DNA of 48,757 nt from contig JACZSK010000011.1 in NCBI GenBank assembly GCA_022574255.1, positions 1 to 48,757 of the forward strand. Direction: 5' to 3'. The position numbers and the translations under genes are program-made. The notes under the pieces are model-generated. The model saw only the letters and a program-made list of their open reading frames with translations. It was not told the DNA's origin and made no database searches. Numbering within the stretch: position 1 is the first letter of the stretch; each line of letters begins with the position of its first letter. Shown piece by piece: positions 6,763-15,081 of this stretch. Origin of the DNA: Pseudomonadota bacterium. GTDB taxonomy: Bacteria > Pseudomonadota > Alphaproteobacteria > Sphingomonadales > SMXR01.

Positions 6763-7296
6763 TCAGTTTTTTCTCGCTATGCGCGCCACTTCCCGTTCAA
6801 CCGTTTCCTCGACGATGCGCGGCAAGTTTTTGTCCAGGTAGGCCTTTATCATGGGCTTCATCATTTCGCGCACCAGCGCCTCAAGCGTATTTCCCGCGCC
6901 GTCATAACCCGCGACCATCAGCGCCGACAGCTTATCGAAAGATTGCTGTGCCGAATCGGACGCTTCATCAGATGCGATCGGATCGGGATCGGCAACTTCG
7001 GTCAGTTCCAGAATTTCCTCTTTCGGCTCTGGCTCTGGTTCCGGCTCAGGCTCAGGCTCAGGTTCCGGCTCGGGCTCGGGTTCTGGCTCGGGTTCCGGCT
7101 CAGGCTCAGGTTCCGGCTCAGGCTCAGGTTCGGGCTCCGGCTCGGGCTCTGGTTCCGGCTCGGGCTCTGGTTCCGGCTCGGGTTCAGGCGCCGCCTCGGC
7201 AGCTTCACCCTCTTCACCATCCTCGGAAATAATCCGCCGAATGGAGGCAAGAATCTCCTCCATCGTCGGTTCCTGTTGGTCGTCCTGCGCACTCAT
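6763..7296 (-). CDS. popZ: PopZ-type polar organising protein (DUF2497)
   Basis: A 177-residue protein with the PopZ layout. The short N-terminal helix reads [17 protein letters not shown] (residues 10-26). An acidic, proline-rich disordered linker follows, and then the conserved C-terminal oligomerisation helices (about 136-175: [20 protein letters not shown] then [17 protein letters not shown]). In Caulobacter PopZ forms a polar matrix that anchors the ParB/parS centromere and recruits signalling proteins. The linker here is exactly 27 uninterrupted Glu-Pro pairs (residues 38-91), far more regular than the usual mixed acidic/proline linker. Gene order pcm-tolC-popZ with valS nearby agrees with other alphaproteobacteria. 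The start has GGGAAG upstream. Confidence 0.9.
7025..7186. repeat. 27 tandem hexanucleotides encoding (Glu-Pro)27 in popZ
   Basis: Twenty-seven in-frame six-base units (GGCTCN or GGTTCN on the plus strand) with no interruption. Variation is confined to synonymous positions: GAG/GAA for Glu and all four Pro codons. A hexamer array can change copy number by slippage without breaking the frame. Confidence 0.95.
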
Positions 7297-9927: not shown

Positions 9928-10001
9928 GGCGCGGTGGCGGAGTGGCTACGCAGAGGATTGCAAATCCTTGCACACCGGTTCGATTCCGGTCCGCGCCTCC
10001 A
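9928..10001 (+). tRNA. tRNA-Cys (GCA)
   Basis: A complete cloverleaf. The acceptor arms GGCGCGG (9928-9934) and CCGCGCC (9991-9997) pair, the anticodon loop is TTGCAAA with anticodon GCA, and the T loop is TTCGATT. The discriminator is T and CCA is encoded (9999-10001). Its last 24 bases are copied three more times immediately downstream. Confidence 0.96.
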
Positions 10002-10198
10002 GACCCTGCCCGGTTATCGAACCGGTGCTTTTCCGTTCCGGGAGTTCGATTCAGGTCCGCCCCTCCAGACCCTGCCCGGTTATCGAACCGGTGCTTTTCC
10101 GTTCCGGGAGTTCGATTCAGGTCCGCGCCTCCAGACCCTGCCCGAAATCGCCCCGGTGCTTTTCTGCCTTGGGAGTTTGATTCAGGTCCGCGCCTCCA
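10002..10198 (+). repeat. three tandem terminator plus tRNA-tail repeats downstream of tRNA-Cys
   Basis: Units lie at 10002-10067 (66 bp), 10068-10133 (66 bp) and 10134-10198 (65 bp). Units 1 and 2 differ at one base; unit 3 is more diverged. Each unit begins GACCCTGCCCG, carries a hairpin followed by TGCTTTT, and ends in a copy of the last 24 bases of tRNA-Cys including CCA. Against the real tail, identity is 22/24, 23/24 and 22/24. The copies lack the acceptor 5' half, D arm and anticodon arm, so they are not tRNA genes. The layout recalls the E. coli tyrT locus, where tandem repeats also end in a tRNA 3' segment. Confidence 0.92.
10010..10032 (+). terminator. Rho-independent terminator after tRNA-Cys, duplicated in the repeat array
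   Basis: The stem CCGGTT-ATCG-AACCGG is followed by TGCTTTT, starting 8 bases after the tRNA CCA. An identical copy is at 10076-10098. The third copy (in 10134-10170) has lost its pairing. Confidence 0.65.
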
Positions 10199-10283
10199 GA
10201 CCCTGCCACGGAACTGCCAGACCCGCTGCGTTCTTGATTTGAGGTTAATACTGAAATTATTGCCCGGACGGCCTATATTATTA

Positions 10284-10387: not shown

Positions 10388-10463
10388 TCCCCAGTAGCTC
10401 AGTTGGTAGAGCAAGCGGCTGTTAACCGCTTTGTCGGTGGTTCGAGTCCGCCCTGGGGAGCCA
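10388..10463 (+). tRNA. tRNA-Asn (GTT)
   Basis: Acceptor TCCCCAG / CTGGGGA, D-arm AGCTCAGTTGGTAGAGC, anticodon loop CTGTTAA with anticodon GTT, T-loop TTCGAGT, discriminator G and encoded CCA (10461-10463). An apparent protein reading through the reverse strand is a translation of this tRNA and is not a gene. Confidence 0.97.
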
Positions 10464-13098: not shown

Positions 13099-15081
13099 CT
13101 AATCGTCCTTGATACCGAGCTGAGACAGGAATTCCTTGATTTCACTGCTCAGGGTCTCGGACTGGACCGACAGCTCCGCGGTGGCCTCGTTGACCTCATT
13201 GACGCCCTGGGACGCTTGATCGGCGGCTTCGTTCACCGTCTGGATCGCCGTGGTCACCTCTTCGGTACCGGAGGCGGCCTGCTGGGTGTTGCGGGCGATC
13301 TCCTGGGTCGCGGCGCTCTGCTCTTCAACCGCTGCTGAAATACCCTGCGAGGTCTCGTTGACCTTTGCGATGGTCGAGGAGATGCCCTCGATCGCAGTCA
13401 CCACCTGGCTGGTCGCAGACTGCATACCGTCGATCTGCTTGGTGATGTCCTCGGTGGCCTTGGCGGTCTGTTGCGCCAGCGCCTTGACCTCGGATGCGAC
13501 AACCGCGAAGCCCTTGCCGGCCTCACCGGCGCGTGCTGCCTCGATCGTGGCGTTCAGGGCCAGGAGGTTGGTCTGCGATGCGATGTCGTTGATCAGATTG
13601 ACGACTTCGCCAATCTTCTGGCCCGCTTCATCCAGCGACTTTACCAGCTCGCTGGTGGAAGCAGCTTCCTCCATGGCCTCGCTGGAGACCTCGGAGGCCT
13701 GCTGCACCTGACGGCTGATCTCGTCGGTCGAGGTCGCCAGCTCCTCGGCAGCGGAAGCAACCGCGCTGACATTGCCGGAAGTCTGCTCGGCCACCGCCGC
13801 AACGGCGGCTGACTGGGTCTTGACCTGCTCGACAGCGGTAGCCATCGTTTCAGACGTTGCTTTCAGCTCGGTAGCGGCGGCTGCGACCGCAGTCGCAACG
13901 CCATCCACCTTACCGGCGATGTTGACCTGATCGGTGATGACGCTCCAGGCCAACAGTGCCTGGACATAGTCGCCGGCCTGACTGTAGACAGCGGAGACCT
14001 TCAGCGACAGGGTATGCTCGCCAAGACTGATATTGGATTCCCACGGCAAATTCGTAGGATCAGCGAGAATCTTCCGCTGATGCGCCGGGTTCTTGTGGAA
14101 AATATCAATGCACTGGCCAACGATATCTTCGGCCCTGCAGGGCAGAAGACTCTCGATCGTCTTCAAGGTGTCGACGCTGGTCTTGTTGGCATATGTGATA
14201 ACCAAAGTTGCGGGATCACAGGTCAGAACATTGATCGGAAGCTGATCGATCATCTGCAGCATCTGCTCGGTTTGTTCTTCCTTCTCAACCCGGTCTGTTA
14301 CGACGCTCCACGCCAGAAGCGCCAGTTCATACTCGCCTTCATCGTTGAAGACCGCGGAAACCTTAAGTTCCAACTTGTGCTCGCCAAGCGTGATGATCGT
14401 CTCGAAAGGCAGATTCGCCGGATCACCAAGTATTTTCCGCTGCGCGGCGGGGTTTTTGTGGAACACGTCAACGCACTGGCCAACGACTTCGTCTGCCCTG
14501 CAAGGCAGAAGATCCTCAATACTCTTCAGGGTCTCGAGGCTGGTCTTGTTGGCGTAGTTGATGACGACTTCCTTGGGATCGCAGGTCAGAACATTGACCG
14601 GAAGCTGGTCGAGAATCTGAAGAAGCTGCTTGGTCTCGGCTTCCTGCTTCTTTTCCTTTGTAATCACGCTCCAGGCGACCATGGCGGCGACATACTCGCC
14701 ATCGCTGTTACGCAGAGCCGAAACCTGAAGTCTCAGGGTCTCTTCACCAAGCTGAATCTCCGCTTCATGCGGCAGATTACTGGGGTCGGCTAGCATGCGG
14801 CGCTGGAATTCCGGATTCTTGTGGAACACATCGATGCAGCAGCCCAGTATCTCATCGGCCTTGATCGGCAGCAAATGTTCGATTGTTTTCAGGGTTTCAA
14901 TGGTGCCAGCGTTCACATAGCGAACCTTGAATTCCTTGATATCGCAGACAATCACATTGACGGGCAGCTGGCCCACCATCTCGGCGTACAGATCATTCGA
15001 AAAAAGGGATTTCTTCGGTTCGGCTGAGCCGTTGGTTACAGCCTCACCTGATGGTTGTTCTTGAGCGGATGCTTCAAGCAT
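13099..15081 (-). CDS. soluble methyl-accepting chemotaxis protein with three PAS repeats
   Basis: A 660-residue chemoreceptor with no membrane segment, so cytoplasmic. Three PAS-like repeats, each about 121 residues, span roughly 29-140, 150-262 and 271-385. Each carries an LP-[VI]-NV start, a Y-[AV]-N segment, FHKNP (His 87, 208 and 329), a following Q-R-[RK]-[MI]-L, and a closing AWSV. The rest is a coiled-coil signalling domain with the canonical CheA/CheW-binding tip at about 492-532 (region around [20 protein letters not shown]). It should sense an internal ligand or redox state and control CheA. The ribosome site AGGAGGT lies just before the ATG. No other che genes are nearby. Confidence 0.93.

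Follow-up and report, generated by a model that had tools for sequence, protein, structure and literature searches.

In Escherichia coli, the tyrT locus carries tandem repeats that end in copies of a tRNA 3' end, and these repeats are usually regarded as a curiosity. In the K-12 strain, three units of 178 nt stand behind tyrV, and the 19 nt that close each of them are identical to the 3' end of the tRNA. Two reports mention the RtT RNAs linked with such repeats: in Actinobacillus they were visible on northern blots (PMC4986893), and in Thioalkalivibrio an RtT small RNA (sRNA) was up-regulated at low temperature (PMC8092127). The locus analysed here lies directly behind a tRNA-Cys gene of a bacterium of the Sphingomonadales (Alphaproteobacteria), on contig JACZSK010000011.1 of the draft assembly GCA_022574255.1 (192 contigs); the whole stretch of 48,757 nt is called the window hereafter. 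It has the tyrT-type layout, namely tandem units behind a tRNA that end in its 3' end with CCA; this layout was already known from E. coli, and its scatter over many bacterial groups is shown here. The array is probably (roughly 60%) a minisatellite, produced by local tandem duplication behind tRNA-Cys and having at most a terminator role.

Regarding its anatomy, the tRNA-Cys(GCA) gene encodes its CCA and is followed by three units, each composed of a spacer and a repeat of the final 24 nt of the gene; a 9-nt partial start of a fourth unit closes the array (Table 1). Tandem Repeats Finder (TRF) delimited the array at 9978-10207, with a period of 66, 3.5 copies and a score of 369; the tail copies start at 10044 (22/24 identities), 10110 (23/24) and 10175 (22/24), and the best match to the 24-nt tail outside the array in the entire 48.7 kb window is 17/24, so that chance is excluded. 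The array is therefore genuine, and what a first inspection of the letters alone (the sequence-only reading) had noticed was accurate: the three units of 65-66 nt with their tails of 22-23/24 including CCA were recovered by TRF and sequence comparison, and units 1 and 2 do differ by a single base (C/G at 10061/10127). Between units 3 and 1 the spacers are 76% identical; that of unit 3 retains CCGGTGCTTTTC without the stem. All three tail copies share a C-to-A change in the T stem, at base 1 of its 3' strand, which indicates that they go back to a single copied unit and that the tRNA itself was not copied anew for each. Some further candidates were rejected: the spacer is not a decayed tRNA body (p 0.94, body versus spacer), the similarity beyond 10207 to a decayed fourth spacer is not significant (p 0.12), and a short CAGGTC/GACCCTG hairpin that would expose CCTCC did not fold better than shuffled sequence.

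Table 1. Coordinates of the tRNA genes, the repeat units and the motifs within them; positions are those of the window.
Feature	Position	Strand	Basis
tRNA-Cys(GCA) gene, CCA encoded	9928-10001	+	ARAGORN; Rfam RF00005, 60.4 bits
Copied 24-nt tRNA-Cys 3' segment, T loop to CCA	9978-10001	+	Sequence comparison; TRF
Repeat unit 1, 66 nt (42-nt spacer plus 24-nt tail, 22/24)	10002-10067	+	
Terminator-like stem-loop CCGGTT-ATCG-AACCGG, then TGCTTTT, unit 1	stem 10010-10025; whole 10010-10032	+	Consensus match only
ATCGAACCGGTG, 12-nt antisense, without mismatch, to the T arm of tRNA-Cys (9973-9984)	10016-10027; again in unit 2, 10082-10093	+	Shuffle p 0.0008
Repeat unit 2, 66 nt, tail 23/24	10068-10133	+	
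Same terminator-like stem-loop and TTTT, unit 2	stem 10076-10091; whole 10076-10098	+	Consensus match only
Repeat unit 3, 65 nt, tail 22/24, stem missing from the diverged spacer	10134-10198	+	
GACCCTGCC, 9-nt partial start of a fourth unit, after the last tail	10199-10207	+	TRF array end at 10207
tRNA-Asn(GTT), next gene downstream of the array	10388-10463	+	ARAGORN; synteny

The likeness to tyrV-rttR-tpr goes beyond the position of the units and their CCA ends: in both loci the copy number is not an integer (3.1 in E. coli, 3.5 in the window), and the 5' strand of the T stem is left uncopied. The two differ in unit length (178 nt against 66 nt), tail length (19 nt against 24 nt) and tRNA (Tyr against Cys); moreover, units 1 and 2 of the window each have a stem and TTTT, and no protamine-like reading frame is kept. 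A repeat peptide was likewise rejected: frames are open across the array and also through the tRNA, and the 65-nt unit 3 breaks the frame. The RtT model RF00391 had no match in the window at the gathering threshold, nor at E<=10 around the array, and none in the genome of this bacterium, whereas the E. coli control was detected; accordingly, the locus shares the layout of tyrT but does not count as an RtT RNA by this model, and of the comparison with tyrT first drawn only the anatomical half stood. In E. coli K-12 tyrV-rttR (L106), every 178-nt unit holds GGGGAAGGAT, an antisense of the tail ATCCTTCCCC, and the two are paired in the predicted fold.

The comparison with related bacteria covered genomes of the same family, none of them from the same genus. 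It occurs in one of the eight family genomes, this one, and a match to tRNA-Cys in seven of the eight, this one included. Absence from close relatives had been named beforehand as the sign of a random duplication; the absence holds at family level, but similar arrays are found at other tRNAs in many phyla, so a random one-off event would not explain everything. Within the order, two tRNA 3' ends 49-73 nt apart were found in 3/196 genomes, namely this one and two (G117, G149) that carry a tRNA-Gln duplication, and the reversed control pattern gave one hit in the same set; at phylum level the pattern was present in 3/397 genomes, this one, a second in which the two tails are unlike each other and a third that appears to be chance.

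The broad scan covered 84,980 genomes and looked for three tRNA 3' ends 44-73 nt apart, with an encoded CCA. It returned 63 stretches, 42 of which are other arrays of at least three tails directly behind a tRNA with a matching end; two of them (L072, L092) have rather unlike tails, and a few genomes supply more than one locus. This figure is a lower bound, and E. coli tyrT itself was outside its reach, because the scan required an encoded CCA and short units. The 42 arrays are spread over many phyla and 16 tRNA identities: 13 belong to tRNA-Ser(GGA) of Microbacteriaceae, five to Gln, four each to Val and Lys, two each to Phe, Arg, Tyr and Asn, and one each to Thr, Cys, Ala, Glu, Met, Gly, His and Pro. 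The longest have 11 tails in Vreelandella boliviensis and nine in both Terriglobus roseus and Cryobacterium sp. HLT2-28. In V. boliviensis LC1 (L103:2652-3251), ten identical 72-nt units, each a 5'-truncated tRNA-Gly(GCC), lie behind the tRNA gene. The spacer is a recognisable 5'-truncated tRNA, with a readable anticodon or variable arm, in many of the other arrays, suggesting that one joint of the duplication that gave rise to the unit probably lay within the tRNA; in the window array, only the 24-nt end is recognisable as tRNA. The start of the spacer recurs after the last tail in 19/43 arrays, the window array (9 nt) among them, as plain tandem duplication would leave it.

The arrays of Microbacteriaceae (Cryobacterium, Agromyces, Leifsonia, Subtercola) resemble that of the window in having 2-8 extra units of 50-73 nt that end in the tRNA 3' end; they differ in lacking a T-run and in their spacers, which resemble the tRNA variable arm and align across genera in 12/13 cases, so that these arrays were probably inherited. 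The spacer-aligned arrays (L043, L051, L052, L054, L055, L069, L071, L083, L091, L095, L098, L100) have GGGTG..GCGCACAGCGCCCAC ahead of the tail.

A minisatellite origin would place one duplication joint in the T loop of tRNA-Cys and the other ~42 nt downstream, so that each unit bears the tRNA 3' end and the stretch behind it; the first copy would have gained the C-to-A change and then been recopied itself, units 1 and 2 being presumably the youngest and unit 3 the oldest. The head-to-tail order of the units, a divergence that rises away from the tRNA, the shared C-to-A change and the absence of the array from the other family genomes with a tRNA-Cys match are in keeping with this route, and so are the perfectly identical units of several other arrays (11 tails x 72 nt in Vreelandella, 9 x 70 nt in Cryobacterium), which fit expansion by slippage or unequal exchange. 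The tails would then be probably inert remnants of the duplication, and the trailer would be taken off by ordinary tRNA 3' processing. The likeliest effect of the array, if any, would be on transcription, as a series of weak terminators. Two terminator-like sites (6-bp stem, four T in a row) were found between tRNA-Cys and tRNA-Asn against 0.6 expected; since they belong to units 1 and 2 and are the only ones before tRNA-Asn, these units may act as tandem terminators. In most relatives the CCA and a T-run are no more than a few bases apart; the window array has no such run.

Some observations weigh against this origin and role. The stem and TTTT are intact in units 1 and 2, as the sequence-only reading had noted, but unit 3 lacks the stem; furthermore, four T are few for an intrinsic terminator. 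Because the array stops after 9 nt of a unit, a simple duplication of tail plus spacer would have to be followed by loss of the remainder of the last spacer. When units 2 and 3 are compared, the block made of the tail and GACCCTGCC changed at 1/33 positions and the rest at 10/35 (Fisher 0.006, with the boundary chosen afterwards); likewise, among 41 comparable arrays the tails are less variable than the spacers in 23 and more variable in 9 (Wilcoxon p 0.018). Such constancy of the tail is not predicted by pure drift, and either selection or conversion between copies could explain it.

If the locus worked like tyrT, read-through from tRNA-Cys and processing would free unit-length small RNAs that act in trans, for instance in the stringent response as reported for RtT. 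This is unlikely, although the layout matches E. coli tyrV-rttR, which was checked here, RtT-type RNAs are known in the two genera cited above, and the lower variability of the tails would suit it. The units also fold somewhat better than shuffles when pooled (mean z -1.0 over 44 units, from the 42 arrays, the window and E. coli; Wilcoxon 4e-7), partly owing to the intact T stem of the longer copies; those of the window, instead, fold like shuffles (z -0.24, 0.06 and 0.29). Every tail copy of the window keeps 2/5 of the T-stem pairs against 5/5 in tRNA-Cys, and the units have no 5' acceptor strand; taken with the folding, this leaves poorly supported the proposal of the sequence-only reading that small RNAs ending in CCA mimic the acceptor/T arm. 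In addition, most of the array lies beyond the two terminator-like sites, it is absent from the family relatives, and RF00391 matched nothing in the window or the genome while its E. coli control was positive.

A wider form of the same idea is that tRNA 3'-end arrays are a recurrent, convergent class in which the tail is under selection and unit-length trailer RNAs act on tRNA processing or translation, the window array being its tRNA-Cys case; we consider this rather unlikely. Covariation was sought in the tRNA-Ser arrays, and none was seen at the predicted pairs. If the layout is shared by dozens of unrelated tRNAs, as the scan indicates, the choice between a neutral minisatellite and a source of small RNAs becomes testable across species, over 2 to 10 extra units and with one lineage, the Microbacteriaceae, in which the array was seemingly inherited.

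Integration at the 3' end of tRNA-Cys, with each tail the attachment-site copy of a lost element, is improbable. The gene order methyltransferase, tRNA-Cys, tRNA-Asn is traceable in genomes of the family, and the interval between the two tRNAs, measured where both ends are on one contig, varies from 0.39 kb here to between 1.1 and ~9 kb in relatives; the conserved block, which extends 9 nt past the CCA, is also like a possible att core. Contigs begin or fork at tRNA-Cys in two relatives, G004 (C33, C47; L035, L036) and G006 (C45, C90; L037, L038), and this hints at strain variation behind the gene; none of these contigs carries an integrase. Nor was an integrase found on the contig of the window or, in six relatives, on the contigs with tRNA-Cys, and the tRNA-Cys to tRNA-Asn intervals of the relatives contain no copy of the tail (best 16/24). 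No second copy of the unit or the tail was found across the genome of this bacterium either; the only other hit, on contig C98 (78% over 47 nt), falls in an apparent coding region and was taken as chance. The unit had no match in plasmids and, in phages, matched ordinary tRNA-Cys genes only; a single viral hit with three tails resembles a coding repeat and not a tRNA tail. Tyrosine-integrase att duplications at tRNA 3' ends are direct repeats of the tRNA 3' end as well, but they consist of two distant copies, whereas the window has near-identical 66-nt units with no integrase or element, and its spacers repeat each other and carry no mobile genes. The suggestion that the copies are integration scars, made from the sequence at first sight, is thus not supported.

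It is very doubtful that the array is a folding switch, in which the antisense stretch of the spacer would pair with the T arm of a misfolded tRNA-Cys and open the terminator stem, so that read-through reports on tRNA folding. The pairing of CACCGGTTCGAT with ATCGAACCGGTG is perfect over 12 nt (Table 1) and is used in the predicted minimum-energy fold of the whole transcript, and a 13-nt T-arm antisense is also present in an independent tRNA-Val array (L053). On the other hand, such an antisense reaches p<0.05 in 4/43 arrays only, about twice the chance expectation, it is lost in unit 3 of the window, and no gene downstream needs control. The stretch also has a sense match (15/20, p 0.018) and may be a decayed sense copy, because T arms are nearly palindromic and make a degenerate sense copy look antisense.

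An artefact of assembly is hardly credible: in a draft of 192 contigs, the copies of a tandem repeat that exceeds the read length can be miscounted, but the units here can be told apart (a single base separates 1 from 2, and the third spacer differs by 24%) and are flanked by unique sequence on both sides, and the same type of array is present in complete genomes such as that of Terriglobus roseus DSM 18391 (L078).

As for the surroundings, a PCMT-type methyltransferase and an outer-membrane efflux protein are encoded upstream on the opposite strand; the neighbours also include a thiamine pyrophosphate (TPP) enzyme and a methyl-accepting chemotaxis protein (MCP), and the genes past tRNA-Asn are unrelated. 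Two other repeats were noted in the window: an 18-nt tandem repeat at 7024-7199 gives a Pro-Glu run in the gene of a DUF2497 protein (6763-7296, minus strand), and a 363-nt tandem duplication at 14045-14731, within a methyl-accepting chemotaxis gene, yields repeated PAS-like domains.
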